Positions 3,945 through 60,754 of a DNA stretch of 64,000 nucleotides are shown here, one piece after another. Numbering within the stretch: position 1 is the first letter of the stretch; each line of letters begins with the position of its first letter. The notes below the pieces were generated by a model that worked only from the letters and a program-made list of their open reading frames with translations, was not told where the DNA came from and did not search any database. The DNA comes from Phycisphaeraceae bacterium (GTDB lineage: Bacteria; Planctomycetota; Phycisphaerae; Phycisphaerales; SM1A02): contig CP054178.1 of NCBI GenBank assembly GCA_015709595.1, positions 248,001 to 312,000 of the forward strand, read 5' to 3'. A program made the position numbers and the translations under genes.

Positions 3945-4020
3945 CCCCATGGGCGACGTCATCGAGGGCGGCGGAGTTACACCAGGCGAGCCGGGCGAGC
4001 CCGGCTCCGGAGGATCACAG

Positions 4021-4356
4021 ATGTCCACGACGAAGTTCGTACAGGAAGGCGCAGCGATCGACTACACCCCCGGGGCCGACATCCCCGCGGGCACGGTCGT
4101 CGTACAAGGCGACCTGGTCGGCACCACGCGCGTCGATCTCAAGTCGGGCCAGCTCGGCTCGCTGGCGGTGCAGGGGGTGTTCGACTTCCCCAAGGCCACT
4201 GGCGCGGGCACGGCGTTCACCGTCGGCACGCTGGCCTACTGGGACGCGACCAACAAGGTCGCCACCAAGACCGCCTCGGGCAACAAGGTGATCGGCAAGG
4301 CCGTGCGTGCCGCGGCCGACGCCGACACGAGTGTTCGCATCCGGATGTCGCAGTAA
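4021..4356 (+). CDS. capsid decoration protein, DUF2190 family
   Basis: A 111-residue protein beginning MSTTKFVQEGAAIDYTPGAD, a typical opening of the DUF2190 family of small beta-rich capsid stabilisers found just after the capsid gene. The start at 4021 is preferred over the in-frame ATG at 3949 because GGAGG lies at 4009-4013 with ideal spacing and the extra residues are a Gly/Pro-rich tail unlike the family. Lambda gpD has a comparable role though a different fold family. Confidence 0.85.
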   Translation: MSTTKFVQEGAAIDYTPGADIPAGTVVVQGDLVGTTRVDLKSGQLGSLAVQGVFDFPKATGAGTAFTVGTLAYWDATNKVATKTASGNKVIGKAVRAAADADTSVRIRMSQ

Positions 4357-4382
4357 CCCCCACCCCCCCACCGGAGGCGCTC

Positions 4383-4771
4383 ATGGGTGACCTGCTCGAA
4401 CAAGGCGCGGCGTTCCTCGACGACCAGCGGCATCGGCACATGAGCCGAACCGTGGTCTACAAGCGAGGGAGCGACGCCAAAGAGGTGCAGGCCACCATCG
4501 GCCGCACCGAGTTCGAGCAGGCCGATGAGGCGGGCCTGATCCACCGCGTCGAATCGCGGGATTACCTCATCCGCGCGGCGGATCTGGACCTGGGCGCAGG
4601 CCCGATCCAGCCCAAGGCCGGCGATCAGGTGCGGGAGCAGGTTGGGTCGCAGGTGTTCGTGTACGAGGTCAACGCGCCTGGGGGGCGGGCGGGCAGCCGC
4701 CGTTCCGCTACAGCGACCCGTACCGCAGGACTTTTCGGATTCACACCAAGCACATCGGCACGGAGACGTGA
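4383..4771 (+). CDS. head-tail adaptor protein, apparent frameshift
   Basis: The frame opened at 4383 (MGDLLEQGAAFLDDQRHRHM) encodes about 100 plausible residues, then runs into a G6 run (about 4680-4685). Past it the sensible protein continues in the -1 frame (GQPPFRYSDPYRRTFRIHTK) and stops at 4769-4771, sharing one base with the next ATG (TGATG). One G missing from the run would restore a protein of about 129 residues. The final motif resembles the C-terminus of short phage head-tail connector proteins. A programmed -1 slip on the G run is the alternative. Confidence 0.65.
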
Positions 4772-5025
4772 TGGCAGAGTCGAACGCACAGAACGGGACC
4801 AGGCTCAATGGTGGAGCGAGGTGGGCGGGCGTGCTCGTCACCATCATCCTCGCCGCCGGCGCGATGACGATCCAGTGGGGCGTGGTCACCACCAAGCTCC
4901 AGCAGGTCGAGAAGCGGCTGGACGAGTTCCTCGGCGAGGCAAGGACGCTGCGGACCGAGTACCAGTCGATCGAGCGGCGAGTGTCGTACCTGGAAGGTCG
5001 GCTCAACGGAAGGGGTGGCCAGTGA
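4771..5025 (+). CDS. small membrane protein with coiled coil
   Basis: 84 residues starting at the ATG in a TGATG overlap with the preceding gene. Residues about 18-38 form one transmembrane helix (WAGVLVTIILAAGAMTIQWG) and the rest is a heptad-like coiled coil ending in a basic tail. This architecture occurs in holin-like and XhlA-like phage proteins and in small structural accessory proteins. Its place in the head-completion block, not next to a lysin, makes a lysis role uncertain. Confidence 0.6.
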   Translation: MAESNAQNGTRLNGGARWAGVLVTIILAAGAMTIQWGVVTTKLQQVEKRLDEFLGEARTLRTEYQSIERRVSYLEGRLNGRGGQ

Positions 5026-5453
5026 GCACCATCGCGGCTATCGCCGACGCCGTCGCCGCGCACATCAACGCCGGGACGTACACGCGCCCCGTGACCGCCG
5101 CGCGGGTCTATCAGCCCGCCTTCACGCTGGAGGACCTCAAGGACCAGCGCGTGTCGGTCGTGCCGCGGACGGTCGGCATCTCCGCCTCCAGCCGCGACAG
5201 CAGCATCTTCGAGTGCGTCATCGACGTGGGCGTGCAACAGAAGCTGCCAGCCGAGAACGAGCAAGCCGAGATCGACGCCCTGCTCGACCTCGCCGAGGAG
5301 ATCGCCGACCGCCTGCGGCTGACGAGGCTTCCCGGTGCGCCCGAAGCAGCATGGGTGGGCATCGCCCACGAGCCCGTGGTGTCGAGCGAATCGCTGGAGC
5401 AGCATCGGGTCTTCACGAGCGTCCTGAGCGTCACGTACCGGGTGCGGAGGTAA
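5022..5453 (+). CDS. putative tail-completion protein
   Basis: 143 residues from a GTG at 5022 that overlaps the upstream TGA (GTGA). The protein (STIAAIADAVAAHINAGTYT... ending in VTYRVRR) has the size, position and alternating strands of tail terminator or head-tail stopper proteins, which follow the connector and precede the tail tube. I see no decisive motif; the role is from gene order. Confidence 0.55.
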   Translation: MSTIAAIADAVAAHINAGTYTRPVTAARVYQPAFTLEDLKDQRVSVVPRTVGISASSRDSSIFECVIDVGVQQKLPAENEQAEIDALLDLAEEIADRLRLTRLPGAPEAAWVGIAHEPVVSSESLEQHRVFTSVLSVTYRVRR

Positions 5454-5456
5454 GCA

Positions 5457-5711
5457 ATGCGGAACTTCATCGCGCTCAAGATCGACCTGGACAGCACCTA
5501 CGCATCGCTCTCGGCGACGCCGCTGGTGGCGACGTGCACGCTGACGTTCGCGCACACCAACACGCAGGACGCCACGCTCAAGGGGACCGACGGCAAGGAA
5601 CTGTTGATCCCGCCCGGGGCGCAGTACCGGCTGGAGCGCGTGGACCTTTCGCGGATTGAGATCAAGAGCAAGAGCGGCGAGTGCGTGTACGTGGTCGGAC
5701 ACAGCGGCTAG
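5457..5711 (+). CDS. small phage protein, function unknown
   Basis: 84 residues, starting three bases after the preceding stop. The sequence looks like a compact beta protein (RNFIALKIDLDSTY... YVVGHSG). Position between tail-completion and tail-tube genes implies a virion or assembly role. No family is recognised. Confidence 0.5.
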   Translation: MRNFIALKIDLDSTYASLSATPLVATCTLTFAHTNTQDATLKGTDGKELLIPPGAQYRLERVDLSRIEIKSKSGECVYVVGHSG

Positions 5712-5741
5712 ACACCCCCACGAGAGGCAAGGAGAACGGCG

Positions 5742-6170
5742 ATGGCGATCAAACTGGGCATGGAGGCCGCCCTCAAGTACAAGGCCGGCGGACAGGCGGG
5801 CGGCGGCTCCTGGACGGCGCTGGGCAACACCCGCGACGTGACGCTCAATCTCGAAGCGGGCGAGGCCGACGTGACTACGCGCGCCAACGCTGGGTGGCGG
5901 GCGACCGTCGCCACGCTCAAGGAGGCGAGCGTCGAGTTCGAGATGGTGTGGGACACCGCCGACGCGGGCTTCACCGCCATCAAGAACGCCTTCTTCAACA
6001 ACACCGTCATTGGCCTGCAGGTCCTCGACGGGACCAGCGGCCAGGGTCTTCAGGCGGACTTCTCGATCACCAACTTCTCGCGTAGCGAGGCACTCGAAGA
6101 GGCCATCACCGTCTCGGTCACGGCGAAGGTGACGTACTCGACGACGGCGCCTTCATGGATCGGCGGCTAA
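5742..6170 (+). CDS. major tail tube protein
   Basis: 142 residues with a clear Shine-Dalgarno (AAGGAG) before the ATG. The chain MAIKLGMEAALKYKAGGQ, then TLNLEAGEADVTTR and ASVEFEMVWD, has the layout of siphophage tail tube subunits, which polymerise as hexameric rings round the tape measure. It lies immediately before the tail chaperone gene, as expected. Confidence 0.75.
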   Translation: MAIKLGMEAALKYKAGGQAGGGSWTALGNTRDVTLNLEAGEADVTTRANAGWRATVATLKEASVEFEMVWDTADAGFTAIKNAFFNNTVIGLQVLDGTSGQGLQADFSITNFSRSEALEEAITVSVTAKVTYSTTAPSWIGG

Positions 6171-8152: not shown

Positions 8153-10147
8153 GTGGCCGACACGCGGGGCATCCGGGCGGGACGGGCGTTCGTCGAGCTC
8201 GGCGTGAGCGACAAACTCAGCGCCGGGCTTCGCCGCGCCCAGAAGCGACTGGAGGCCTTCGGCCAGGGGCTGCGAAGCGCCGGCACGAGGCTGGCGGGCA
8301 TCGGCGCGGCGGCGGTCACGGCGCTGCTCGGGAGCGTGAAGGTCTTCGCCGGCATGGGCGACGCCCTGGACAAGATGAGCCTGCGCGCCGGCGTCAGCGC
8401 CGAGGCCCTGAGCGAGCTGGGCTTCGCCGCCGAGCAGTCCGGGGCGGACTTGGAGACGCTTGAGAACGGCCTGAAGTTCATGCAGCGGTCGCTGGTGGAC
8501 GCGGCGAAGGGCTCGGCGACCGCACAACAGGCGCTCTCGCTACTCGGCTTGTCCGTGGCCGACCTCGCGGGCCTCTCGCCGGACCAGCAGTTCAAGCGTC
8601 TCGCCGACCGCCTCGCGCAAGTCACCGACCCGGCGTTGCGCACCGCGCTGGCGATGGAGATCTTCGGGCGCGCCGGAACGAAACTCCTGCCCCTGCTCTC
8701 GTCAGGCGCGGCGGGGATCGAGGAACTTCAGCAGCAGGCCCGCAGCCTGGGTCTGACCGTCAGCACGCAGACGGCCAAGGACGCCGCGGAACTCAACGAC
8801 ACGCTCAACATCCTCTGGCGCGTGGTCAAGCAGGGTGTATTCGCCATTGGCGGGGCACTCGCGCCCACGATCAAGGAACTCTCGCAGCGCATTACGCGCG
8901 TCATCGTCACCGCCACAGACTGGATCAAGCGCAACAAGGACCTGGTCGTGTGGGCGCTGAAGATCGCGGCGGGCGTCGTGGTCGTCGGTGCCGCGCTCAT
9001 CGGCCTGGGCGTGGTCATCTCCGGCGTCGGCGCGGCGCTGGGAGTGCTGGCCAGCATCGTTTCCGGCATCGGCGCTGTGTTCGGGCTGGTCGGGGCCGCC
9101 GTCGCGGCGTTGCTCAGCCCAATCGGGCTGGTCGTCGCCGCCGTCGTCGGTCTTGGCGCAGCGCTCCTGGTCACCAGCGGCACGGGCGGGGCCGCACTCG
9201 AATGGCTTGGCGAGCAGTTTACCCGCCTGCGCGACTGGGCCACCAAGGTCATCGGTGGCATCTCCGATGCACTGGCTGCCGGGGACATCGCTCTCGCGGC
9301 CGAGGTCCTATGGCTGTCGCTCAAGGTCATCTGGCAGCAGGGCGTCGCGGCGCTGAACAAGGCGTGGCTCGGGGCGAAGCAGTTCTTCGTGAGCACGGCC
9401 CAGTCGATGTGGCACGGGGCTCTCGCCGCCGCGGAGATCGGCTTCCACGCCATCGAGGTCGCGTGGATCGAGACCACGGCGTTCCTCAGCAAGACCTGGA
9501 CGAACTTCACGACCGGGTTCCAGCAGGTCTGGGAGTCCGCGTCGTCGTGGGTCGCCAAGCGCATGCTGGAGATCCAGGGGTTGTTCGATTCCGGGCTGGA
9601 TGTGGACGCCGCCAAGAAGGCGGTGGACCAGCAACTCGAATCGCGGCTGATCGAACTGGAGGACGCCGCGCAGCGCGATGTGGCCGCGCGGGAGCGACGC
9701 CGCGCCGCCGAGCGCGAGCAGGCGGCCGCCATCCACGAGGCCACGCTCGCGGCCATCGGGCAAGACTTCGAGAACGCCCAAGAAGCCCTGCGAAAGGACA
9801 CCGAGGCGGGGATCGCGCAGTCGCAGGCGGCACTGGACGCCGCGAAGGAGCGCCTCGCCGCCGCGATCGAGGAAGCCCGGCGCAAACGCGAGGCGGCGGA
9901 CGCCGAGCGCGGGCCCTCCAGATCGCCGCGCGACCTCATGGCAGAGTTCGAGGACCGCATCTCTGGCCTCGGCGACCTGCTCGCCAAGGGGATCAGCGTG
10001 CGCGGCACGTTCAACGCGGCGGGCGCTCAGGGCCTGGCCGCGGGGAACGACGCCGCCGAGCGCACGGCCCGGGCCACGGAGCAGACGGCCCGGCACACTA
10101 AGCGTCTGGCCGACGCGGCGGGGACGGGAGGACTTGCTTTCACATGA
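8153..10147 (+). CDS. tail tape measure protein
   Basis: 664 residues from a GTG. The N-terminal part is helical with TAQQALSLLGLSVADLAGLS, common to TP901-type tape measures. A large hydrophobic block lies at about residues 265-345 (several Ala/Val/Gly-rich helices), and a charged Arg/Glu/Ala coiled coil follows at about 500-590. The protein sets tail length and is carried inside the tube; the hydrophobic segment is expected to act at the host membrane. By lambda proportion a protein this size suggests a tail of about 100 nm, a rough inference. Confidence 0.88.
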   Translation: MADTRGIRAGRAFVELGVSDKLSAGLRRAQKRLEAFGQGLRSAGTRLAGIGAAAVTALLGSVKVFAGMGDALDKMSLRAGVSAEALSELGFAAEQSGADLETLENGLKFMQRSLVDAAKGSATAQQALSLLGLSVADLAGLSPDQQFKRLADRLAQVTDPALRTALAMEIFGRAGTKLLPLLSSGAAGIEELQQQARSLGLTVSTQTAKDAAELNDTLNILWRVVKQGVFAIGGALAPTIKELSQRITRVIVTATDWIKRNKDLVVWALKIAAGVVVVGAALIGLGVVISGVGAALGVLASIVSGIGAVFGLVGAAVAALLSPIGLVVAAVVGLGAALLVTSGTGGAALEWLGEQFTRLRDWATKVIGGISDALAAGDIALAAEVLWLSLKVIWQQGVAALNKAWLGAKQFFVSTAQSMWHGALAAAEIGFHAIEVAWIETTAFLSKTWTNFTTGFQQVWESASSWVAKRMLEIQGLFDSGLDVDAAKKAVDQQLESRLIELEDAAQRDVAARERRRAAEREQAAAIHEATLAAIGQDFENAQEALRKDTEAGIAQSQAALDAAKERLAAAIEEARRKREAADAERGPSRSPRDLMAEFEDRISGLGDLLAKGISVRGTFNAAGAQGLAAGNDAAERTARATEQTARHTKRLADAAGTGGLAFT

Positions 10148-10638: not shown

Positions 10639-11469
10639 ATGCCCATCGAGGTGCGAGAAAAGTTCGAGTCACGCCGACTCGTCAAGAGCGTCACGGGGAG
10701 CAACTCCTCGGCGGAGCTCGCGTACATCGTGCTGGGCACGGACAACGACATCGCCGCGCGCGATGCGCTGGAGGCCGAGGCCCCCGCCAACTACGCCAAC
10801 CTGCCGCGCCAAAGCGTGCAGGTCGAGCCCCTCGGGCCGGGCCTGTGGGACGGCGTCGTCCGCTACGCGCTCTCGGGCGGCGGGGGCGGCCCACCCACCG
10901 GCGAGTCCACCTTCCAGTTCGACACCGGCGGAGGCACGCAGCACATCACCCAGTCGCTGGCCACCGTGCAGCGCGTCCCCGCGCCGGGCATGGGAGGGGG
11001 GGTTGCGCCGGACTTCCAGGGGGCGATCGGCGTGAGCGCCGACGGTGTCGAGGGGATCGACATCACCGTCCCCGTCTACCACTTCGCCGAGACACATTAC
11101 AAGCCCGACGCGCAGATCACCGGCGCGTACAAGGGCGTGCTCTTCAACCTGACCGGCAAGGTCAACGGCGACGGCTTCCGGGGCTTCGCGCCCGGCGAGG
11201 TGCTCTTCCTGGGCGCGAGCGGTGCGAAGCGCGGCAGCGGCGATGAGGCAGACTGGGAGATCACGTACCGCTTCGCCGCCAGCCCCAACGTGACGGGCCT
11301 GTCGGTCGGCCCGATCAACGGCATCAACAAGAAGGGGTGGGAGTACCTGTGGGTGCGCTACAGCGACCAGGAGGACACCGCCGCCAAGGCGCTGGTGAAG
11401 CGCCCCATCGCGGCCTACGTCGAGCGCGTGTACGAGAGCGGGAGTTTCGCGGCGCTGCAGTTGGGATGA
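10639..11469 (+). CDS. minor tail / tail-tip protein
   Basis: 276 residues starting MPIEVREKFESRRLVKSV. The chain is rich in Gly and beta-strand patterns and ends in VERVYESGSFAALQLG, with no signal or membrane segment. Position after the tape measure corresponds to distal tail or baseplate proteins. No specific domain recognised. Confidence 0.6.
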   Translation: MPIEVREKFESRRLVKSVTGSNSSAELAYIVLGTDNDIAARDALEAEAPANYANLPRQSVQVEPLGPGLWDGVVRYALSGGGGGPPTGESTFQFDTGGGTQHITQSLATVQRVPAPGMGGGVAPDFQGAIGVSADGVEGIDITVPVYHFAETHYKPDAQITGAYKGVLFNLTGKVNGDGFRGFAPGEVLFLGASGAKRGSGDEADWEITYRFAASPNVTGLSVGPINGINKKGWEYLWVRYSDQEDTAAKALVKRPIAAYVERVYESGSFAALQLG

Positions 11470-11472
11470 CGA

Positions 11473-12506
11473 ATGGGTGACGACCTCCGCAAAGTCCGGC
11501 CCGGCGATCCGCTCCGCATTCCTGCGCGGGCGTACAACGCCTTTGTCGATGCGGCGCTGGAGACCAAGCGCCGCCAGCAGGACCGCCGCGCCCGGGGAAC
11601 TGTGGGACGGCGGGCGTCTTCATCGGCGGCGGCGTCGTCGCCGTCCGCAATGACAGCGGCGCGGACCTGGATCGCTACCACGCCCTGGCCATCGACGGCC
11701 CGCTCTTTGCCCCCGATGACGACGGCCCCGAGAAGTCCTTCCAGAACCGCCTGGCCTTCAAGGGCATCACGCCGACCGACACGACGCGCGCGGGCTCCTT
11801 CGCCATCGCGCGCGAGCCGATCCCGCAGGGCGAGGTCGGCCTGTGCGTCGTCCACGGCGTCACGCCCGCACGCATCCTCATCGAGGACGAGGAGCACGCG
11901 TTCGCCGAGGTCGCGCGCGATGAGACGGTGCTCACGTCCGTGGGCTCCGGGAGCGCCGCCATCCTCTGGAAGGAGGAAGGTGTCGGCGAGAAGTGGGCGC
12001 TGGTCGAGGTGGGCCGCCCGCGCGGGTGTCGCATCGTCGCCATCCTCGGCGAGGCCCGCGAGATCGAGGGCGAGCGATTCCGCTGGCGTTACCCGTGGAC
12101 CGAGGCCGCGATCGACGGCGACCCCGGCAGCGATACATTCGGGCGGTACATCGCGCTGGAGGAAGGTCTGTCGTCCAAGGGCGCGGGCGGCGAGGAAGAC
12201 CCGTCGCGCTGGGCCATCAACAGGTTCGAGAGCCATCACAGCGACGTGCCGGAGGAAGAGCCCGAAGGCACCGACGGCTTCGGCGGCCTGCGGTCGCTCT
12301 TCGTGCCGGGGCAACTCGAACCCCTCGACCCCGCGGGCTACTGCCCGCGCAAGGCCGCGGTGCCGATGCTCCGCCCCATCCTCAAAGGCGTCGCGATCGA
12401 GATGGTGGCCGAGCGCGACACGCGCGGCGGGACGGTCTGGGCGTTCCAGGCCCTCAACGGAATGGAACTGGTCGAGTTCGATGTCCCGGTGTGGCTCTAT
12501 GTCTGA
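11473..12506 (+). CDS. tail-region structural protein, frameshift near 11596
   Basis: The gene opens at 11473 (MGDDLRKVRPGDPLRIPARA). At the CGGGGAA run near 11596 the sensible frame changes by -1 and continues GTAGVFIGGGVVAVRNDSGA, running to a stop at 12504-12506. One missing G would restore about 345 residues. The middle (about 60-150) looks like a beta-rich domain seen in phage tail proteins. The overlap with the next ATG (12499) supports the frame used at the end. Exact role unknown. Confidence 0.6.
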
Positions 12507-13086
12507 CCCCAACCCCCACGAGAACCTCCCCGTGGACCTCGAAGCCCGGCGCGAGCACGAGCGAAAGAAGTACCTTGCGCTGGCCGCGCACGCCGGGGGC
12601 ACCTACGGCTCGACCAACCACGGGCGTTTCGCGTACCGGCTGGTGCAGGGATGGAAGCCTCGCTTCGTCGTGGACTTCGGCTGCGGCCGGAACTTCTTCA
12701 TCCAGCACCTGCGGCGGCTCGGGATCGACGGGCTCGGCATCGACTTCGCCTTCCCCGAAGCGGACATCGTCGCGCCCATGCACCGCGTGCCGGTCTCCGC
12801 GGGCATCGCCGACGTGGTGACCGCCTTCGACGCCCTGGAACACCTGCTCCCCGAGGAGGTGGACGAGGTGCTCGACGAGATGCGGCGGATTGCGGTGCCG
12901 GGCGGTGGCTTTGTGTTCTCGATCTGCACGCGGGAGAGCAGGACGAAGGTCAACGGCGAGGGCCTGCACCCGACGGTGCGGCCGCTGAAGTGGTGGCTCG
13001 ACCGGATCGGCCGCGTCGGCACGGTGCGCCAGGGACTCGGCGATCCTCGTGGGGGGTACATCGCGGGGGTGTTCAACCATGCGTGA
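12499..13086 (+). CDS. class I SAM-dependent methyltransferase
   Basis: 195 residues. Motif I is FVVDFGCGRNFFIQHL (residues about 56-71), followed by GIDGLGIDFAFPEADI (motif II region) and ADVVTAFDALEHLLPEEVDE (post II/motif III, around 106-125). This is the UbiE/Methyltransf_11-like fold used on small molecules, glycans or proteins. It overlaps both neighbours by a few bases and is followed by a DUF115-like enzyme, so the pair may modify a sugar or virion surface. Substrate unknown. Confidence 0.75.
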   Translation: MSDPNPHENLPVDLEARREHERKKYLALAAHAGGTYGSTNHGRFAYRLVQGWKPRFVVDFGCGRNFFIQHLRRLGIDGLGIDFAFPEADIVAPMHRVPVSAGIADVVTAFDALEHLLPEEVDEVLDEMRRIAVPGGGFVFSICTRESRTKVNGEGLHPTVRPLKWWLDRIGRVGTVRQGLGDPRGGYIAGVFNHA

Positions 13087-13984
13087 GAATGGTGGCGACA
13101 TCACGGCATTGCAGGCGGGACTCAAACAGCGCAAGCCCGCGCGGAGCGGCGTGCGCCTCTACACCGCCGACTTCGACTCCGTCTCGCTGTGCGACTTCTA
13201 CAGGGGCCGCTCGGCGTTCCTGATCCTCTCGGGGCCTTCGCTCTCGGCGCTCGACCTGGCCCAACTCAACCGGCGCGGCATCGTCACGATGGCCGTGAAC
13301 AACGCGTGGTCGCTGCACCGCCCGACGCTGTGGATGTGCGTGGATGACCCCGGTCGGTTCATCGACACGGGCTGGAAGGACCCCGGCATCCTGAAGATCG
13401 TGCCCGTGTCGCACTTCGACAAGCGCCTGCGCGTCCAGAACCCTGACGGGTCGTTCCGCGCCAGCGCGTTCAAGGTGCGACAGATGCCGGGCGTGCTCTT
13501 CTACCGCCGCAGCGACCATTTCGACCACAGCCGGTTCCTCAAGAGCGACACCATCAACTGGGGTCAGGACGGGGAACACACCGATTCGCTGGGGATCAAG
13601 GGCAAACGCAGCGTCATGCTGGCGGCCCTGCACCTGCTGCACTACCTGGGCTTCCGCACGGTCTACCTGCTCGGCGCAGACTTCAGGATGGACCGCGAGC
13701 GGCGCTACGCCTTCGACGAGCACCGAAGCAAGGACGCGATCCGCCACAACACCATCCTGTACGAGAGCCTCCAGAAGCGATTCGAGGCCCTCAAGCCGCA
13801 CTTCGAGCAGCACCGCTTCCGCGTGCTCAACTGTGCGCCCGACCCCGAGTCGTGCGCCCTGAAGGCGTTCGAGTTCGTGCGGTTCGAACAGGCCGTGGCC
13901 GACGCCGCGGCGGAGTGCAGCAAGCCCGTCAGCACCGCCGGGTGGTATCAGCCCGCGAATCCGAGTCAGGAGAACAAGGGATGA
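13079..13984 (+). CDS. DUF115/MptE-like or glycosyltransferase-like enzyme
   Basis: 301 residues. The N-terminal core FLILSGPSLSALDLAQLNRR and TMAVNNAWSLHRPTLWMCVD matches the Rossmann-like opening of DUF115/MAF and related sialyltransferase-like enzymes, where a G-x-S-L loop binds a nucleotide donor. A later FRTVYLLGADFRM segment fits the same fold. It begins inside the 3' end of the methyltransferase gene and ends in an ATGA overlap with the Hint gene, so the three are one translation unit. Reaction not determined. Confidence 0.55.
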   Translation: MRENGGDITALQAGLKQRKPARSGVRLYTADFDSVSLCDFYRGRSAFLILSGPSLSALDLAQLNRRGIVTMAVNNAWSLHRPTLWMCVDDPGRFIDTGWKDPGILKIVPVSHFDKRLRVQNPDGSFRASAFKVRQMPGVLFYRRSDHFDHSRFLKSDTINWGQDGEHTDSLGIKGKRSVMLAALHLLHYLGFRTVYLLGADFRMDRERRYAFDEHRSKDAIRHNTILYESLQKRFEALKPHFEQHRFRVLNCAPDPESCALKAFEFVRFEQAVADAAAECSKPVSTAGWYQPANPSQENKG

Positions 13985-15048
13985 GCGACGAACCCCGCCG
14001 GTACTTCCTCTACATCCCGGTGTGGGCCACCACCGGCGGCCCCGGCGGCTCGGGCTCCGGCTCGTCGGGGAGTTCGGCGAGTTCCTCGTCGGGCTCGTCG
14101 TCATCGAGCGGGAGCAGTTCGTCGGGATCATCGGGGGGCTCGTCGAGCGGGTCGTCGAGCAGCGGCTCGGGCGGATCGGGCGGGTCGGGTTCCGGCGGCA
14201 GCGGTGGCTCCGGCTCTGGCGGGTCCGGAGGCTCAGGCAGCGGCGGGTCTGGTGGGAGCGGATCGGGCAGCGGCGGCTCTGGAGGCGGCGGTTCGGGTGG
14301 TGGAGGATCGGGGGGCGGTGGTGGCGGAGGAGGAGGTGGTGGAGGCGGGGGCGGAGGTGGCGGGGGTGGGGGTTCGAACTGCCTGCTCTTTGGCACGCTC
14401 GTCCGGCGGGCCGACGGCCGCGTCACCACGATCGAGAACCTCAAGCCCGGCGATAGCGTCGCCACCATCAAGGTCCCCGGCCTCGAGGTCGATGTCCCCT
14501 ACCGCGCCCAGTACCAGTGGCTCTCTCACCACGGCATGCGCGGCACGATCCCGACCGTCGGCCGCGTCGCCAGCGTGAAACTCGGCGAGCACACGGGGTT
14601 CATGGTCATCAACCGCCGGATCAAGGCCACGCCCGAGCACCCGTTCCTCATGCGCCGCGGCGACGAGTGGGGCTTCTCGTCGGCGGAGTTCCTCAAGAAG
14701 GGCGACTACCTGATCGGCGAGCGACTTGCTGAGGAACTCGTCGAGACCGTCGAGCGTATCGACGCTCCGACCCGCACCGTGGCCATCCACATTCCCGGCA
14801 CGAACACGTTCTCCGCCGAGGGCGTCTGGGTCCACAACGACATGCCCGCGACCGCGCACTCCTCCGGTTCGGGGTCGAGCTCAAGCGGTTCGGGTTCCGG
14901 CAGCGGTTCCTCGAGCAGCAGCGGGTCCTCCTCGGCCAGCAAGTCCAGCGGCTCGTCCATGTCGTCGAGTTCCTCCTCCGGCTCCGGCAGCGGCAGCGGC
15001 TCCAGCAGCCAGTCCAGCGGCGGACCCGGAGGGACGTACTCCATCTAG
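13981..15048 (+). CDS. Ser/Gly-rich protein with embedded Hint (intein-like) domain
   Basis: 355 residues in three parts. Residues 1-18 are a short head ([18 protein letters not shown]). Residues about 19-133 are almost only Gly and Ser. Residues 134-286 form a Hint domain: Cys134 ([20 protein letters not shown]), KPGDSVAT, a TxxH box (ATPEHPFLM) and the C-terminal GVWVHN ending at Asn286. A second Ser/Gly tail follows. The residue after HN is Asp287, not Cys, Ser or Thr, so canonical splicing lacks its acceptor; self-cleavage as in bacterial intein-like domains is more likely. It is the last gene of the late operon. Substrate and role are unknown. Confidence 0.8.
14037..14376 (+). repeat. 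Gly/Ser codon low-complexity tract (N-terminal linker)
   Basis: Imperfect GGC/TCG/GGT triplet repeats encoding the first Ser/Gly linker of the Hint protein. The 3' part (about 14280-14375) becomes almost pure Gly codons. Such tracts are prone to length change by slippage and are hard to assemble. Confidence 0.9.
14860..15030 (+). repeat. Ser/Gly codon low-complexity tract (C-terminal linker)
   Basis: Second run of TCC/AGC/GGC triplets after the Hint domain, coding a Ser-rich tail that ends GGPGGTYSI. Less Gly-pure than the first tract. Confidence 0.85.
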
Positions 15049-17546
15049 GCCGCCCGCCGGAGTCGGAGACTATTCAGCACCACACTCACGCTGCTGAACG
15101 CCATCGCCGCGCTCGCGATGATCGGCGAGAGCAACCACCCGGTGATCGGGAACAGCACTCCCGCCGCGATCGGAATGCCCACGACGTTGTAGATGAACGC
15201 CCAGAAGAGGTTCTGCTTGATCGTCCGCATCGTGGCGTGCGAGAGGGCGATGGCCTGGGGCACGGCCCGGAGGTCGCCTCGCATGAGCGTGATGTCGGCT
15301 GACTCCATCGCCACATCGGTGCCGGTTCCAACCGCGAGGCCCACATCGGCCTGGGCGAGCGCTGGGGCGTCATTGATGCCGTCGCCGACCATGCCCACGA
15401 CGTGACCCTCGCCCTGGAGGGCCTTGACCTTGTCCGCCTTGTCTTTGGGCAGCACGTCGGCGAAGACCACATCGACGCCGACCTGCGAGGCGACTGCCTC
15501 TGCGGTCCGCTGGTTGTCGCCGGTCATCATGACCACGCGCAGCCCGAGGCCGTGCATCGTGGCGATGGCATCCCTTGATTCGGGTCGCACCGTGTCGGCG
15601 ACGGCCACGATCCCTGCCTCGCGGCCGTCCACCGCGACATACATCGGCGTGCGCCCCATCGCCGCCAGTGCCGCGGCCTTCTCCACTAGTGCGGACTGGA
15701 TACCGCGCTGAGCCAGCAACGCCGCCTTGCCGACCAGCACCGCGTGCCCGTCCACCGTGGCCTCGACGCCATGCCCGACCACGGCCCGGAAGCCGATGGG
15801 CTCGGCGAGCGATAGTTCGCGTGCCGTCGCCTCACGCACGATCGCCGCCGCGAGCGGGTGCTCGCTGTGCTGCTCCGCTGATGCAGCGAGCCGCAGCAAC
15901 TCGCGCTCGTCAAGCGTCCCCCCCGCACCCGCTGGGGCCGGGATGATGTCCGTCACCGCGGGCTTGCCGTGCGTGATGGTGCCCGTCTTGTCGAGCACGA
16001 TGGCCGTGAGCTTGTGCGCAGTTTCCAGCGCCTCGCCGCCCTTGATCAGGATGCCCCTTTCCGCGCCGCGCCCCGTGCCCACCATGATCGCCGTCGGCGT
16101 TGCCAGGCCCAGCGCGCACGGGCACGCGATGATCAGCACGGACACGGACGTCACCAGCGCCATGCTGAGCCGAGTCTCCGGGGGCGAGACGAACCACCAG
16201 ATGACAAAGGCTGCGATGGCAATGACGATGACGATCGGGACGAAGACCCCGCTGATCCTGTCGGCCAGGCGGGCGATCGGGGCCTTGCTGCCCTGGGCCT
16301 CCTGCACAAGCCGCACGATCTGCTGAAGGGCCGAGTCGGCCCCGACTTTGGTCGCGACCAGCCGCAGCGCGCCGGTCGTGTTCATCGTCGCACCAAAGAC
16401 GCTGTCGCCGGCCGCCTTCTCGACCGGCACGCTCTCGCCGGTGAGCATCGACTCGTCCACCGCGGACTGGCCGCTCTCTACCGTGCCGTCCACGGGGATC
16501 TTCTCGCCCGGGCGCACCAGCACACGGTCGCCCACGACCACGGATTCGATCGGCACATCCTGCTCGGTGCCGTCACCCCCACCTCGAATGACCCGTGCGG
16601 TCCTGGCCTGCATCCCGATGAGCCGCTTGATGGCCGCGCTGGTCCGGCCGGTGGCCCGGGCCTCGAAGTACTTGCCCAGCAGGATCAGCACGATGATGAC
16701 CGCGGCCGCCTCGTAGTACACGGGCACCATGATCATGCCGCCCATCGTGCCCTCGGCGTGTGCGGCGTGGGCCCCCGCCCCGCTCACGGCCGCGAAGAAC
16801 CCAGGCCAGATCGTCGCCGCGAACGAGTAGAGGTACGCTGCGCCCGTGCCCATCGCCACAAGCGTGTCCATGTTGGCGCTGAAGTGCCGCAGACCCTTCC
16901 ACGCGGCGCGAAAGAACTGCCAGCCGCACCAGAGCATCACCGGCGTCGTGAGCGCGAACTGGAGCCAGTTGATCCAGGGCACGTTGAACGCCTCGATCTT
17001 CCCGTGCGACATGGCGATGACGAGCACGGGCAGCGACAGCGCCGCGCCGACGATCGTTTTGGTGAGCAGCCGCCGCGTCTCGGCCTCGCCCACGTTCATG
17101 TGCGCCGAGTGGTCCTCGCCCCCCCCGCCGCCGCGCATCGCGTGCCCGGCGTGTGCTCCGGCACCCTGTGCAGCCAGCATCGCCGCGTGGTCGTGGCCCG
17201 CGTGACCATGAGCGGGATTGAACGCCCCGTGCTCCGCCGCAGCCGCCGTGGAAGGGGCTGCGGGCACGATCGCCTTGTATCCGATGTCGTCCACCGCCTT
17301 GGCGAGCGTCTCCGGCCCGGTCGCCGCCGGGTCGTACTTGACCGTCGCCACCTTGGTGGCGAAGTTCACGCTCGCCGATGAGACGCCGGGCTGCTTGGCG
17401 AGCCGCTTCTCAATCCGGTTCGCGCACGAGGCACAGGTCATGCCCTCGATCGGCAAGTCGCAGCGCTCCTCGGACGTTGTCAGCGTGCGAGCGGCCCCTG
17501 ACCCGTGCGCATGCGCCGGGGTCGAGTCGTGACGATCAGTGCTCAT
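15045..17546 (-). CDS. copA: copper-exporting P1B-type ATPase CopA
   Basis: 833 residues. An N-terminal HMA domain ([15 protein letters not shown], CxxC near residues 38-41) is followed by a His-rich linker (about 106-150), eight predicted membrane helices, the P1B-1 metal motif CPC (475-477, in [12 protein letters not shown]), TGES (369-372), the phosphorylation site DKTGT (519-523), SEHPL (about 560) and [10 protein letters not shown]. These identify a Cu(I) export ATPase of the inner membrane. It is last in the copZ-csoR-copA order and has an AAGGA ribosome site. Its TAG stop shares the palindrome CTAG with the TAG of the convergent Hint gene, leaving no terminator between them. Confidence 0.95.
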
Positions 17547-17579
17547 GTGCGGTGTCCTTTGTGATCGCCCCCGGGTAGC

Positions 17580-18004
17580 TCAGCGAGCGATCCTCCCAAC
17601 CAGTTCGACAAGTTCCTCCACCATCGCCTCCTGCTGAGCCTTGCCCCCGTGGAGCGCGTGGTTGGCGCAATGGGTGAGGTGATTGCGGAGCAGGTTCTTG
17701 GCGACCGACCGCAGCGACTCCTGCACCGCCGCGCACTGCTGGATGATGTCGGCGCAGTACCGGTCCTCGTCGATCATCGCGGCGATACCCCGAACCTGCC
17801 CCTCGATCCGCCGGAGGTGCTTGAGGTTCGCCGACTTGAGAGCCGCATCCACGCCCGATGCGTGCGCGCCCGGGCCGACACCATCGCGCGCCGCCTCAAG
17901 ACCCGCCGCAAGCCGCACCCGCAGCACGCCGCGGCACCCCTGTCAGGTGTCGCCGCCGCGCCCTTGCCGCCTCTCCCGTTCTTTGCCGCGTCCCGCTTCT
18001 TCAT
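17580..18004 (-). CDS. csoR: CsoR-family copper-sensing repressor, probable N-terminal frameshift
   Basis: The conserved body HLRRIEGQVRGIAAMIDEDR, then YCADIIQQ and HLTHC gives the Cys-His-Cys copper ligand set of CsoR. This all-helical repressor leaves DNA when Cu(I) binds. The frame with the body begins only at a weak GTG (17927). A better start is the ATG at 18004 (MKKRDAAKNGRGG...CCGCG), which has an AAGGA ribosome site; one missing base in the GC-rich stretch near 17920 would join the two. Lying between copZ and copA, it probably represses its own operon. Confidence 0.85.
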
Positions 18005-18055
18005 GACTGCTCATTCCTTGTGAGTATGTATTGACGCTCGCCATGGACTTCATCG

Positions 18056-18328
18056 TTACCCGCAGCACCCAGCGCGGGAAGCGCTCTCACGGGTCTCGCT
18101 TACCCGGGCCGAGTACCCGGCCTCGTCGAGCACGGCAACGGCTCGGGCAACAGTGAGCCCATCGGGCGCAGTGATCTCCGCGCTGCCCACCACGACCAAC
18201 CGGACGCCCACCCCCTGCACCCCGACCAGCGCCTTCGTCACGGCCTGCACACAGTGTCCGCATGTCATGCCGTCGATGGTGAGCGTGAACGTCGAGTGAT
18301 TGGCAGTCGCATAGCCGGTCGAACTCAT
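18056..18328 (-). CDS. copZ: CopZ-like HMA copper chaperone
   Basis: 90 residues from the ATG at 18328, chosen for the AGGAG ribosome site just upstream; a longer in-frame ORF runs through the promoter and is rejected. One HMA domain with GMTCGHCVQAVTKAL (CxxC) and a Cys-rich end (AGCCG). Small proteins of this type carry Cu(I) to the CopA HMA domain. It is the first gene after a near-consensus sigma-70 promoter with an operator-like palindrome. Confidence 0.88.
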   Translation of the reverse strand: MSSTGYATANHSTFTLTIDGMTCGHCVQAVTKALVGVQGVGVRLVVVGSAEITAPDGLTVARAVAVLDEAGYSARVSETRESASRAGCCG

Positions 18329-18346
18329 GCTGATTCTCCTGTGTGA

Positions 18347-18375
18347 AGTATACTCCCCCCCAGTATCGATGTCAA
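18347..18375 (-). promoter_or_regulatory. sigma-70 promoter with CsoR-type operator before copZ
   Basis: On the minus strand TTGACA (plus 18370-18375) and TATACT (plus 18347-18352) are separated by exactly 17 bp. The spacer contains the inverted repeat ATACT-C7-AGTAT (plus 18350-18366), resembling CsoR operators, which pair A/T arms around a G/C run. Repressor bound here would block the polymerase. This is the only promoter seen for copZ-csoR-copA. Confidence 0.8.
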
Positions 18376-18469
18376 CTCGATTCATCGTGCTCGTGCGAGC
18401 ACCGGCGAGTTCGCCAGGGGAGGGTGGCCCCCGCACAGAACGGCCGGGATGGGCGTGCCACGGCGTTGT

Positions 18470-21400
18470 TCACCGAGCCTTGGTGCGCTGATGGCGCTTC
18501 CACTTCCACTCCTCCACCGCGCAGAACGCGCAGGGCACGATGAAGAGCGTGATCAGCGACACGGTCATGCCGCCAACCGATGGGATGGCCATCGGCTGCA
18601 TGATGTCCGCGCCGCGCCCGGTCGCCCAGAAGATCGGCATGAGGGCGAAGACGGACGTGGCACTCGTCATGAGGCAAGGACGGATCCGCTTGAGACCAGC
18701 CTCGATCACCGCCTCGCGGATCTCGTGGACCGAAGCAAACCGTCGGTCCTTGAAGATCCCTTCGAGATAGGTCGACATGACCACGCCGTCGTCGTCCACG
18801 ATCCCGAAGAGCACGAGGAAGCCGACCCACACCGCGACCGAGAGGTTGACGCCCCAGAGCGCGAGCATGATGAACCCGCCCGATGCCGAGACGATCACGC
18901 CGAAGAAGATGACCGGTGCGATCCACCAGCGCGAGAATCCGAGATAGAGCATCACGAACATGATGGTGAGCGTGATAGGAACAAGGATCTGCATCCGCTT
19001 GGTGGCGCGGACCTGGTTCTCGAACTGCCCGGACCACTCCCAGTAGTACCCGGGCGGGAGCGTCAGTCTCCCGTCCGTGAGCGCCTGGCGCAGCACGCGC
19101 TCGGCGTCCTGAACCACCGAGACCTCGTCGCGGTCACGCGTGTTCATGGTCACATAGCCGACCAGCAGTCCTCGCTCGCCCTTGATCTCCTGCGGGCCGA
19201 GCACGGTGGAGATTGTCGCGAGCTGCGCCAGCGGCACCTGCGCACCGGTGGACGAGGGCACATTGATCCTCTGGATCGCGTCCATGTCCTCACGGAAGTC
19301 GCGGGCGAGCCGGACCCGGATCGGGTACCGCTCCCGTCCCTCGACAGACTCCATAAGGTTCATCCCACCCAGCGCCATCTCGATGACGTTCTGCACGTCG
19401 CGGATGTTGACGCCGTAGCGGGCAATCCGCTCACGGTCGATCTCGATCTGGATGTACGGCTTGCCGACGATGCGGTCCGCAACGATGTCCGTTGCACCGG
19501 GCACTTCTCTGAGCAACTGCTCGATCTGGAGCCCGATCTTCTCGATCTCGCGAAGATCACTCCCGAAGATCTTCACACCCATCATGGCGCGGAAGCCGGT
19601 CTGGAGCATGACCAGCCGTGTCTGGATCGGCTGGAGCCACGTGGGAAGCACCCCGGGGATGGCGGTCTTCTCCTGGAGTTCGGCGAGGATCTCCTGCTTG
19701 GTGATCCGCCGCTCCTCAGGCCAGATCCACGAGAGCGGCGTTCGGATGACTCCCGGCCAATCGGAGAAGAACCGTTCAACCCTGTAGGTGCGCCACTGGC
19801 TCTCGGGCTTCAAGATGACGATGGACTCCATCATCCCGATGGGCGCGGGGTCCAGTGCGGATTCGGCACGCCCGATCTTGCCGACCACGCTCTCGACCTC
19901 GGGCACGCTCGCGATCGCCAGGTCCTGCTTGCTGTTGACCTCGACCGCCTGGGACAGGGACGCCTGGGGCAGCAACGACGGCATGTACAGGAGCGAACCC
20001 TCGTCCAAGGGCGGCATGAACTCCCGGCCCAGGCCGGGGAGGATGCGGCCCTCCTTGAGGACCGCAAGACCAGCGCTCGACTCGGCGTCTCGCTCTGCAG
20101 GGTCCTGGCGACGCCAGAGAAGGCGGGTCCTCTCGGCGCCTCCCGCATCGCGGACACGTTGCCAGCGCAGCTGGTCGAGCTCCAGGAGTGGCCGTGTGAT
20201 GTCAGCGTCCCCCGGCTCGTACATGGCGTGCTTGAGTTGTGGCGAGGCCCGTTCCGACGCAAACGCGTTCACCACCCACCCGACGGGGGCGAGCGTGCGG
20301 TGGATGCCGAGCCACACGGAGAGCCCGGCAAAGAGGATCAGCACCGGCGCCACCATGAAGAGCCTCTTGTGGTCGAGGACCCAGCGGAGCGTCGGCACGT
20401 ACCCCCGGGCGATGACCCGCGACACCGGGTTCCGCTCCAGCGGCTGGAACTTCTCGCGCGTCATCCGGATCACGCACAGCCCGACCCCGATCCCCACACC
20501 CGCCGCCACGAGCCACCCACGGTCGTGCGCGCCCCCAAGTCCCCACATGAAGGCCAGGTGCGCCGCGAGCGTGGCCAGAATCCCGACGCCGGCCGCGACC
20601 GCGAGTGTTGTCCGGTGCTTCCACGCCACAGGCCGGTAGAGCAAGTAGCACAGGAAGGGCACCACCGTGATCGCGAGGATCACCGACGAGCCGATCGCGA
20701 AGGTCTTGGTGAACGCGAGCGGCTTGAAGAGTTTGCCTTCCTGGTCGGTCAGGAAGAACACCGGGATGAACGAGACAATCGTGTTCGTGACGGCCGTGAG
20801 GATCGCGCCGCCGACCTCCGTCGCACCCTCGTACACCAGGCCGAAGTGCCCCTTCTCCCGCCGCTCCTCCGCCGATGCGGTCGCGATCCGTCGGTAGATG
20901 TTCTCCGTCATGATGATCCCCATGTCCGTGATGCTGCCGATGGCGATTGCCAGCCCGGCCAGCGACATGATGTTGCTGTCCACGCCGACCACGTACATCA
21001 GGATGAACGACCCCGCCAGGGCCAGCGGGAGCGTCGGCAGGACGGTCGCGGTCGAACGCAGGTGCATCAGGAAGAACAGCACGATGACCCCGGCGATCAG
21101 CGCCTCCTCGAACAGCGCCGACTTCAGCGTGTCGATCGTCTCCTGCACGATGGTGGTGCGGTCGTAGAACGGCACGAGTGTGACGCCCGACACACGCCCG
21201 CCCGGGAGCGTCTTGCGGGGAAGGCCCGCCTCGAGCTGGGCGATCTTCTCCTTGACCCGCGCGATCACCTCGCGCGGGTTCTCGCCGTACCGCATGAGCA
21301 CCACGCCGCCCACCGCCTCGACGCCCCCCTTGTCCAACGCGCCGCGCCGAAAGTCAGGGCCCAGCTGGACCGTCGCGACGCTGCGCAGGTAGAGCGGCGT

Positions 21401-22152
21401 GCCCCCCTCCTGGCGGATCATGACCCGCTCAAGATCCTCTACAGACTTGATGAACCCCAGCCCGCGGATGAAGTACTCGACGCCGTTCTGCTCGATGACC
21501 TTCGCGCCGACGTCGATGTTGCTCTTGCCGACGGCCTCGACGATCTCCATCAACGTCACGCGGTGCGCCCGCATCTTGTCCGGGTTGATGTCGATCTGGT
21601 ACTGCTTGACGAAACCGCCGACGCTCGCGACCTCGCTCACGCCCGGCACCGTCTGAAGCTGGTAACGGATGTACCAGTCCTGGATCGATCGCAGTTCGGC
21701 GAGGTCGAACCCTTCCCCTCAACCGTGTACCAGTAGATCTGACCGAGCGCGGTGGCGTCAGGGCCGAGCACAGGGGTCACGCCCGCGGGCAGTCGCTGCT
21801 GGGCGACGTTCATCCGCTCGAGCACGCGCGCCCGCGCCCAGTAGTAATCCACGCTGTCCTCGAAGATCACGAAGACCATCGAGAACCCGAAGCCCGACAT
21901 GGAGCGGATCGCCTTCACCCCGGGCGTGCCGGTCAGGCTTGTCGTGAGCGGATAGGTGACCTGATCGTCAACGTCCTGCGGGCTCCGCCCCTCCCAGTCG
22001 GCGTACACGATCACCTGCTTCTCGCCGATGTCCGGAATCGCGTCCACCGGCAGCCGGAGGATGGCCCAGTACCCGGCGGCACAGATGCCGAGGATGAAGA
22101 GAGTCATCAGGAACGTGTTCTTCATGCACCAGCGAATGACGGCGTTGACCAT
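18470..22152 (-). CDS. cusA: CusA-type RND heavy-metal efflux pump, one frameshift
   Basis: The N-terminal part (from 22152, MVNAVIRWCMKNTFLMTLFI) reads to TVEG; the remainder continues in another frame as FDLAEL... to 18470. The break lies in the GGGG run near 21715; one more G would give VEGEGFDLAEL and one protein of about 1,226 residues. Motifs include LAIAIGSITDMGIIMTENIY in the proton-relay helix and GREFMPPLDEGSLLYMPSLL. Typical CusA is about 1,050 residues; the extra length lies in an added segment with several hydrophobic helices after the first helix bundle. It would pump Cu(I)/Ag(I) through CusB and CusC. Confidence 0.9.
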
Positions 22153-22167
22153 GGGTTGCTCCTCCGC

Positions 22168-23871
22168 TCAGTGCTTGTGGCCGCCGGTCGGTGCGGGCGT
22201 TGTTGGTGGCACCGCGCCAGCACCGGGCTGCGCCGGAGCGTCAGCGGGCGTTGCGGCCCCGCCGTGGTCATGGCCCATCGTCGCGTGCAGCCCGCCGGGG
22301 TAGAAGAGGCTCGGGTGCCCGGTGACCTGGAACTGGCTGTCGATCAGGAAGTTGCCGCGGGTCACCACCCGCTCCCCCGCCGAAAGGCCGGACAGCACGG
22401 GGAAGTACGCGCCCGCCCTCGGCCCGAGCGTGAGTTCTCGCGGCTCGAACAGGCCGCGAGCCTTCTCCACGTACACGATCTGGCGGGTTCCCGAGTCGAG
22501 TACGGCCGCCACCGGCACCGCCAGCACACCGCTAGCAGTGCTTGCCGCCGCCGCCGGAGCCGCTTCGACCTCCTTGAGTTTCATCTTGCACACCGGGCAG
22601 CGTCCAGGCTCGTCGTATGTCTTCTCGCCCTCGCACTTCATCGGACAGAAGTACTTGGCCGCGAGCGACGGAGCTGCCGCCGCCGCTCCGCCGTGCTCGT
22701 CACTGTGCGTGGCGTGATCCGCGGGATGTGCCGGGCTGCTCGTCGGTTCGCCCGGAATCTGTTCCAGGGGCATCTCGCAGATCGGGCAGTCCCCGTCCGC
22801 CTCCGTGAGCACCTGAGGGTGCATCGGACAGGTGAACTTGCCCTCGACGCCCGTCGGCGCGGCCCGTCCCTCGGTGGACAGCGTGGCCGAGATCGACGCC
22901 GTCACGAACATCCCCGGCTTGAGCGCGAGGTCCTGGTTGTCGATGTGGACCGGGATGCGCACCGTCCGCGACTGCTCGTTCACGATCGGTTGAACGAACG
23001 TGACCAACCCCTCGAACGTGCGACCGGGGATGGCCTCCGCAGAAAGCCGCACCTTCTGGCCGTACCGGATCCACGGCAGATCGAACTCGTACACCTCCAG
23101 GTACACCCAGACCGAGTCAAGGTTGGCGATCCGGTAGAGCATGTCTCCGGCCCTGAAGGACGCATTCTGGACGATCGCCTTCTCAATGACCGTGCCGCTG
23201 ATCGGCGAATAGAGCGTGACGCGGTCGGTCGTCTGCTTCTGGTCGACCAGTGCGGCGATCTGCGCGTCCGTAAGCCCGAGCAGACGCAGGCGTGTCTTTG
23301 CGACGTTCACCAGCGCCTCCCCCGCGCCGCCGGCCTGCAGGGCGATGAGGAGTTCCTGCTGCGCCACCAGCAGTTCGGGGCTGTAGACCTCGGCCAGGTG
23401 GTCCCCCTTGCGAATCTCCACGCCGGTGAAGTTCACGAACAGCCGCTCGGCGTACCCGTCCACCCGCGGCGTGATCGTGGCGAGCGACGACTCGTTGTAC
23501 TCGATGCGTCCGACGGCCCGGAGTTCACGCGACAGCGGGCGATGCTCGATAGCCACCGTCTCCACGCTCGCCATCGCACGCGCGTGCTCGGAGAGTTGAA
23601 GCGTGGGAGCCTCGCCGGCCGCGGTCGCCGTCGCCGAGGCCGCCGGGATGAGCGGCATCTCGCAGATCGGGCAATCGCCCGGTCGATCCAGCCGGACCTG
23701 CGGGTGCATCGAGCAGGTGTAGACCTGCTTCGCGGGTGCGGGCGAGGCCGCGACCGCTGGCCCCACGCTGGGTGCAGGCCCCGCACCGTCGCCACGCCCG
23801 AGCCAGTACCCGCCGGCGGCGGCAAGCACGATCACAGCAACGATCGACACGATGGTGGTGCTTCGCTTCAT
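22168..23871 (-). CDS. cusB: CusB-type periplasmic adaptor with three metal-binding (HMBD) motifs
   Basis: 567 residues with an N-terminal membrane anchor (about 5-25). Three CSMHP/CPMHP...CPICxM-type heavy-metal-binding motifs occur: residues 51-77, 346-371 and 407-435 (the last is CPMKC...CPVCKM). The first precedes the adaptor core; the other two are inserted within it, between the membrane-proximal barrel (about 250-330) and the final strand region (about 450-515). A His-rich tail ends in GGHKH. Most CusB-like adaptors have none or one such motif. The gene overlaps cusC by four bases. Confidence 0.92.
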   Translation of the reverse strand: MKRSTTIVSIVAVIVLAAAGGYWLGRGDGAGPAPSVGPAVAASPAPAKQVYTCSMHPQVRLDRPGDCPICEMPLIPAASATATAAGEAPTLQLSEHARAMASVETVAIEHRPLSRELRAVGRIEYNESSLATITPRVDGYAERLFVNFTGVEIRKGDHLAEVYSPELLVAQQELLIALQAGGAGEALVNVAKTRLRLLGLTDAQIAALVDQKQTTDRVTLYSPISGTVIEKAIVQNASFRAGDMLYRIANLDSVWVYLEVYEFDLPWIRYGQKVRLSAEAIPGRTFEGLVTFVQPIVNEQSRTVRIPVHIDNQDLALKPGMFVTASISATLSTEGRAAPTGVEGKFTCPMHPQVLTEADGDCPICEMPLEQIPGEPTSSPAHPADHATHSDEHGGAAAAAPSLAAKYFCPMKCEGEKTYDEPGRCPVCKMKLKEVEAAPAAAASTASGVLAVPVAAVLDSGTRQIVYVEKARGLFEPRELTLGPRAGAYFPVLSGLSAGERVVTRGNFLIDSQFQVTGHPSLFYPGGLHATMGHDHGGAATPADAPAQPGAGAVPPTTPAPTGGHKH

Positions 23872-60674: not shown

Positions 60675-60687
60675 CTCTGCATCGTGG

Positions 60688-60754
60688 TTCTACCGGTGGC
60701 ATTGGTTGCTTCAAAACGGGCTGCGACGCGCGCAGGGCGAGCCGCTTTTGCATA
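60688..60754 (+). promoter_or_regulatory. conserved block upstream of gpW-like gene (prophage B)
   Basis: Carries TCTACCGGTGG (60688-60698) and GCTTTTGCATA (60744-60754), the same two words found at 35-100. Probable late-operon control region. Confidence 0.4.

Follow-up and report, generated by a model that had tools for sequence, protein, structure and literature searches.

What is the role of a Hint (intein-like) domain that stands between two tracts of nearly pure glycine and serine, in a gene that closes a phage late operon? The question is raised by an open reading frame at positions 13981-15048 (+ strand) of a stretch of 64,000 nucleotides from a Phycisphaeraceae bacterium (contig CP054178.1, positions 248,001 to 312,000), the whole of which we refer to as the window.

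The reading frame encodes a protein of 355 residues, composed of a head peptide, a Ser/Gly tract, the Hint domain, Asp287 and a Ser/Gly-rich tail. The head (13981-14034) has been described as short and indeed comprises 18 residues, but it carries a strongly conserved motif with the core [KRQ]Y[FY]L[YF][IL]PVWA, which recurs in relatives; a DNA pattern for this core finds three Hint genes in the organism's own genome and nothing else. The N-terminal tract (residues 19-132; 14035-14376) has Gly or Ser at 112 of its 114 positions (66 Gly and 46 Ser) and contains neither Lys nor Cys, as do the N-terminal tracts of all 84 copies with a recognised head. Asn133 (the −1 residue) and the Hint domain from Cys134 to Asn286 follow at 14377-14838. 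The block-B box is T217-P-E-H220, and the domain ends in H285-N286, with Asp287 at +1. From there the tail (14839-15045) runs to GGPGGTYSI, and of the 68 residues past Asp287, 16 are Gly and 38 are Ser. Lys321, the sole Lys outside the Hint domain, lies in the motif KSSGSSM (14941-14961). The original prediction of a Hint domain with Cys134, a TxxH box, a terminal HN and Asp at +1, with linkers of Gly and Ser on both sides, agrees with this protein in every respect (112 of 114 residues before the domain and 54 of 68 in the tail are Gly or Ser). The tracts draw on each of the four Gly codons and on both families of Ser codons, and are thus not a simple DNA repeat. Across relatives, 15-144 residues follow the Hint domain, and they are Ser/Gly-rich in the copies read.

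The ATG of the Hint gene overlaps the stop codon of the preceding gene by 4 nt (ATGA); our home-made gene caller wrongly places the start at 14536. The genes upstream, all on the + strand, encode a portal protein (362-1915), a capsid/protease protein (1905-3944), a decoration protein (4021-4356) and a tail tube protein (5742-6170), with further unassigned genes within 362-6170, and a tape measure protein (8153-10147). They are followed by a conserved tail-region gene for what we call the cluster-5 protein (10639-11469), the tail-region gene of the cluster-4 protein (11473-12506), a methyltransferase gene that is a conserved neighbour (12499-13086) and a gene for a sialyltransferase/MptE(Maf)-like putative glycosyltransferase (13079-13984). 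Since the portal-to-tape-measure series lies upstream, the Hint gene stands last in a late operon that belongs to a siphovirus-type prophage, in keeping with its predicted position, and relatives have an identical gene order upstream of it. Neither the cluster-4 nor the cluster-5 protein has a PHROG or Pfam match at E ≤ 0.01, and the designation "tail tip" for this region is therefore based on position. Their profiles found nothing in the PDB apart from one match at E 0.034, which we take as chance, and a DNA search of named phages with part of cluster 4 gave zero matches. The window copy of the cluster-4 gene is frameshifted, and we read its frames apart without mending them. The gene is intact in the two other copies in the same genome, and the frameshift represents either real decay or a sequencing error.

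The Hint gene also delimits the conserved core of the phage. Directly after it, or after the two transferase genes that follow it in some relatives, the cargo is highly variable. In the window (15045-25223) it includes genes for copper ATPase and Cus-like efflux; other loci have what appear by eye to be restriction/helicase genes or MacB-like transporters, or else a serine recombinase (L031) accompanied by ParB-like genes. A second, related prophage, in the same orientation, was read over window positions 58204-63998 and on the adjoining genome positions 310001-325000, with a terminase gene at 58204-60489 and a capsid/protease homologue from 62562; its own Hint gene lies past the window end, at genome position 322566. 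At one locus (L188:6711-8504), the second half of a Hint gene, tail included, is joined in frame to an apparent phage helicase gene, a chimera that perhaps arose by recombination between prophages or by an assembly join.

The genome (one contig, 3.84 Mb) contains three copies of the Hint gene in all; the domains of the other two are 96% and 56% identical to that in the window, and both genes follow the same tail genes. A single profile detects 77 loci in contigs of a genome collection and 35 in viral contigs (16, 35 and 40 viral loci were found in three partly overlapping scans). By record title, 65 of the 77 are Phycisphaer-, six are other Planctomycetota and six are others (Rhizobiaceae, Leptolyngbya, Cyanobacteria, Dehalococcoidia, Vicinamibacteraceae and "bacterium"), perhaps mis-binned contigs. 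Several records have multiple copies, and CP054186.1 has five. The same layout was to be sought in other planctomycete prophages, and many of these, as well as viral contigs, have it. NG86 omega of the Hint domain was computed for the 112 of 129 domains that share one length, using the 6056 pairs with pS > 0.05 and dS < 1.5; its median is 0.37, its 95th percentile 0.58 and its maximum 0.99, values that are rough for a GC-rich genome. Given three copies in one genome, 77 and 35 loci elsewhere and this omega of 0.37, the reading frame is not a chance one. A class-wide scan gave a match in 17 of 298 genomes, own genome included. We reject an ordinary host gene as an explanation, with further context read for some of these matches; one of them (G232, locus L144) is an unrelated host protein. 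The L144 gene, on the − strand, encodes three successive Hint domains, each ending in HNKG, together with hydrophobic stretches, and looks like a non-phage host membrane protein.

To describe conservation we used 129 distinct copies. These were obtained from 193 reading frames at E ≤ 1e-10, of which 182 were near-complete, by removing other families (L140-L142, L144, L187 and L189-L191) and collapsing the remainder; the head is cut or unrecognised in 13 of the 129. Cys134, the TxEH box and the last His are present in 129/129 copies, the terminal Asn in 127/129 and Asn at −1 in 128/129; some of our search patterns held active-site residues (EGVWVHND; [IV][KR][AVL]T[FP]EHP[FLM]; N[TVL][YF][LV]A[EDG]G[VIA]W), and part of the conservation at those sites is therefore built in. 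None of these patterns includes Cys134 or the Lys motif of the tail. A scan with the head alone, which is free of this bias, gave 62 matches, of which 43 have a Hint domain, 14 are cut by the end of the stretch and five are Hint-less. In the sample selected in this way, Cys is found in 42/42 copies, and TxEHP and HN each in 41/41 among those uncut; L238 was missed by the domain-end pattern, yet it reads WAHND. The conservation of Cys134, the TxxH His and Asn286, which was proposed as a check, thus held, apart from the Asn in two copies. The residue after HN is Asp in 121 of the 129 copies, Ala in two, Thr in two, Gln in one and Tyr in one, and two domains have non-canonical ends (HHD in L063, HDN in L064), so that +1 is a non-nucleophile (Asp, Ala, Gln, Tyr or Asn) in 127/129 copies and Thr in the other two. 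One copy, L038, is broken and lacks the head, the Lys motif and a transferase neighbour.

An AF2 model of the Hint domain (pLDDT 92.5) was compared with the PDB. Foldseek matches it to 2lwy (E 3.1e-9) and 6y75 (E 1.3e-8), both of which are BIL domains. With VIA-align, 6y75_B has a Z-score of 19.6 (132 residues aligned, 1.4 Å) and 2lwy one of 18.7 (129 aligned, 1.4 Å); true inteins reach up to 18.1, so the best BIL match is only 1.5 ahead and 2lwy is tied with the inteins. The nearest solved relative by sequence profile is again 2lwy, the C. thermocellum BIL domain (E 3.1e-7), and the Pfam Hint families match the window copy below their cut-offs. Four features of an A-type BIL are found: a Hint fold, an N-terminal Cys with TxxH, a C-terminal His-Asn and, in the window, no Cys, Ser or Thr at +1. 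By its predicted fold and its residues, the domain is BIL-like, and self-cleavage is its putative activity. An intein was considered and rejected, because the +1 residue is Asp in the window (Thr in two of 129 relatives) and the flanks are Ser/Gly tracts in place of a conserved insertion site in a host protein. From −1 to +1 the domain spans 155-161 residues in 83/83 copies measured, which leaves no room for a homing endonuclease. We also discarded the idea of a selfish relic, as almost every copy retains the active site.

The gene at 13079-13984, a candidate GT42/Maf-like glycosyltransferase gene, matches phrog_4603 (alpha-2,3-sialyltransferases; E 2.9e-8). At E ≤ 0.1, 44 of its 45 relatives match MptE-like and 29 of 45 match CST-I, and the window copy scores below both Pfam cut-offs. 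Its AF2 model is poor (pLDDT 58.2) and gave no Foldseek match at E ≤ 0.001. To be testable, a copy needed 3 kb or more of sequence before the Hint gene and 2 kb or more behind it (46 of the 129 have too little flank), and 82 of 83 such copies are flanked by a transferase-like gene. Among all 129, 46 have a transferase of an additional type, 74 have the shared upstream gene only and nine, some of them cut, have none; for the 74, the case for a transferase neighbour is a weak one, made solely through relatives of the putatively assigned gene at 13079-13984. The additional transferases form non-homologous sets by lineage (a Gly_transf_sug pair, a GT25-like plus sulfotransferase gene, and a phrog_1962 glycosyltransferase). 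The shared upstream gene is one inherited association, and the additional transferases vary by lineage. In one clade, two Gly_transf_sug genes follow the Hint gene, the first beginning four bases inside its end. The GT25-like/sulfotransferase gene is present in the fusion lineages described below: in L145, Sulfotransfer_3 passes its Pfam cut-off, GT25 falls short of its own and a PHROG glucosyltransferase matches at 1.2e-8, and in L143 the sulfotransferase is the sole Pfam match. At L146 we find a methyltransferase and a match to a PHROG glycosyltransferase (E 6.2e-38). PF12919, the catalytic glycosyltransferase domain of TcdA/TcdB, is a further match of the second Gly_transf_sug gene and exceeds its cut-off, but its best-scoring stretch covers 23 residues that fall within the region matched by Gly_transf_sug; we take it as a shared glycosyltransferase motif and discard a toxin reading.

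The tail contains a second conserved element, K-x-S-G-S-S with a hydrophobic residue in the next two positions, KxSGSS(x)[FML]. The loose pattern K..[GS]SS is present in 127 of 129 tails, the exceptions being the broken copy L038 and L177, which keeps KSSG. The hydrophobic residue accompanies the motif in all 127 of these tails, compared with 24 of the 1337 [GS]SS triplets found elsewhere in these tails; two or more Lys are present in 60/129 tails. The head-selected sample comprises 42 distinct reading frames, and we recorded the motif in 39 of them. Of the remaining three, two are truncated upstream of its position, and L236, which lies on the contig of L177, retains just KSSG.

The five Hint-less orthologues come from viral contigs (L193, L200, L209, L226 and L244) and have the head and the tract. 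In place of the Hint domain they have a beta-like repeat, followed by a tail end of the type EGVPPA, and the Lys motif is absent in 5/5. All five have the methyltransferase and sialyltransferase-like genes upstream; Gly_transf_sug genes follow in three, and the other two stretches stop at the stop codon. In a tree of the upstream gene (FastTree, 105 sequences, hand-chosen outgroup), the Hint-less copies form one clade (support 0.98). Its sister clade has the Hint domain, and so do the lineages among which it is nested; a single loss is therefore the simplest account. Since the transferases remain when the Hint domain is lost, they go with the tract; since the clade lives without the domain, processing is not essential to the scaffold. 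The Lys motif was lost together with the Hint domain and is thus probably part of the processing, although a single event is suggestive only.

The EGVPPA-type end is common to 40 of the 129 Hint-bearing tails (as EGVPxA near the tail end) and absent in the window copy. Adjoining Gly_transf_sug genes are found in 38 of these 40 and in 0 of the 89 others, and the two co-occur in a clade with the head, in a fusion lineage (L186) and in the Hint-less clade. EGVPxA may be a putative recognition tag for the transferase, or the link may simply reflect adjacency on the DNA.

In loci L143, L145, L153-L155, L185 and L186, the Ser/Gly-Hint part is fused to the N-terminal domain of cluster 4, which links it to a tail-region protein that is encoded separately in the window. 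In L143:5413-7611 (− strand) and L153:6374-8603, a Ser/Gly-Hint cassette interrupts the cluster-4-type domain, and the second half of that domain continues in the next reading frame, which has its own Hint domain.

To our knowledge, the natural functions of BIL domains are poorly known. The C. thermocellum BIL (2lwy) and the T. thermophila BUBL1 BIL2 (6y75) share with our protein the Hint fold, the N-terminal Cys, TxxH and the terminal HN, and BIL domains are further alike in a mostly non-nucleophilic +1 residue, in a position between conserved and variable parts and in presence or absence among orthologues. Unlike those systems, the present one lies in a phage late operon and has Gly/Ser tracts on both sides, linked transferase-like genes, a conserved Lys motif in the tail, a conserved Asn at −1 and mostly Asp at +1. 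The nearest matches in the named phages that we searched (25.8-28.4% identity) are Hint C-termini of virion or tail-fibre proteins in Erwinia jumbo phages and phage NCTB. A collagen-like part precedes the Hint domain in the two Erwinia jumbo phage proteins read (pEa_SNUABM_1 and pEa_SNUABM_5), and the terminal HN is alike. However, the Erwinia and NCTB proteins have neither Ser/Gly tracts nor the KxSGSS motif, with 3-10 residues past HN in the four read. Phage NCTB (L142:1-6483) has several Hint domains in neighbouring tail-region genes, each ending in HN and a few residues.

The S74 chaperone domain of tail fibres and spikes has a fold unrelated to Hint. It is nevertheless a functional analogue, a self-removing autopeptidase domain in a low-complexity virion protein, and its chemistry differs in using a conserved Ser and Lys, according to PMC7824862. 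Class 1 MafB toxins of Neisseria have an optional A-type BIL between conserved and variable parts (PMC4287609), but MafB is a secreted toxin with a signal peptide and an immunity gene, neither of which we recognised in the window system. In mycobacteriophages, phage-encoded enzymes O-glycosylate the capsid and/or tail; the passage on this (PMC11652166) makes no mention of a Hint domain, and in our system glycosylation is a prediction.

Taking these data together, we give an even chance to the following reading: the product is a mucin-like scaffold, glycosylated and associated with the virion, whose A-type-BIL-like domain severs the chain and may also rejoin it. The prophage would produce this scaffold as the last gene product of its tail region and attach it to the virion, the adjacent putative transferases would glycosylate the Ser/Gly tracts, and the BIL-type Hint domain would process the chain by itself. 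The transferases could instead act on the host surface. The layout, the place in the operon, the conserved active site, the BIL-like fold model, the transferase-like neighbours, the Lys motif and the Hint-less orthologues are read from the sequence; from these we infer glycosylation of the tracts, autoprocessing and the form of the product, as well as the virion location, for which operon position and the fusions are the grounds.

Cleavage without rejoining, with the tail freed as a peptide and the head and tract left as a separate chain, is somewhat less probable than an even chance. The non-nucleophilic +1 residue in 127/129 copies points this way, as do PMC7664689 and PMC7765530, in which BIL domains lack a +1 nucleophile, mainly cleave and predominantly yield cleaved products. 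However, the five Hint-less orthologues hold the head, the tract and the EGVPPA-type end in one chain, which fits a rejoined or uncut product better. The source paper of 2lwy, as cited in PMC7664689, also speaks in its title of ligation without nucleophilic side chains. The original prediction that the domain should cleave rather than splice agrees with what most BIL domains do, and it was too strong because of that title.

Splicing of the BIL type would join tract and tail again and leave a mature product like the Hint-less orthologue. In its favour, the domain is present or absent in otherwise matching proteins, a pattern also seen for the A-type BIL of MafB (PMC4287609). We rate it at about one chance in four, since +1 has no nucleophile and the swap is imprecise, a beta-like repeat module replacing the Hint domain together with the Lys part of the tail.

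That the gene belongs to a lysogenic-conversion (moron) module at the operon end, altering the host surface with a protein outside the virion, is unlikely. It borders cargo, such as the copper ATPase genes, in many loci, but it overlaps the preceding late-operon gene by 4 nt, forms a single chain with a tail-region protein in the fusion lineages and has no signal peptide by eye.

Slightly less likely still is a cross-linking reaction, in which the side chain of the tail Lys, from the same or a neighbouring subunit, would attack the Cys134 thioester to give an isopeptide-linked loop or polymer. The KxSGSS-type motif with its hydrophobic residue (127/127 against 24/1337 background triplets) and the tracts without Lys and Cys (84/84) are consistent with such chemistry, and the absence of the motif from all five Hint-less copies ties it to the Hint domain rather than to the transferases. 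Against this, the joint loss is one event in one clade, many tails have extra Lys (two or more in 60/129), the motif may simply bind something, and a literature search on this chemistry, among open-licence papers, gave no Hint example. The fuller version, a Hint domain acting as a cross-linking enzyme that passes a thioester-activated Ser/Gly chain to the tail Lys and so builds closed or polymerised, glycosylated, brush-like tail structures, has about one chance in ten; if true, it would be Hint-catalysed isopeptide formation on a virion. Finally, delivery of a polymorphic toxin released by a PT-HINT pretoxin domain is very improbable: PT-HINT matches 41 of 59 members at E ≤ 0.01, but the window copy scores 22.5 (whole protein) and 26.6 (domain) against a cut-off of 27.7, the window protein matches no toxin family, and the part after the Hint domain, where a toxin domain would be expected, is 15-144 residues long and Ser/Gly-rich in the copies read.

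We found no description of the Ser/Gly-Hint-Ser/Gly layout, and none of mucin-like glycosylated appendages in planctomycete viruses, in the open-licence literature; the transferase flanks, the Lys motif of the tail, the Hint-less clade and the cluster-4 fusion are new here. A conserved late-operon gene for a BIL-like domain, a clade that amounts to a natural knock-out and a nearly invariant tail motif make the form of the product directly testable. The glycosylated scaffold that we favour suggests that planctomycete viruses may carry phage-encoded, mucin-like, glycosylated appendages.
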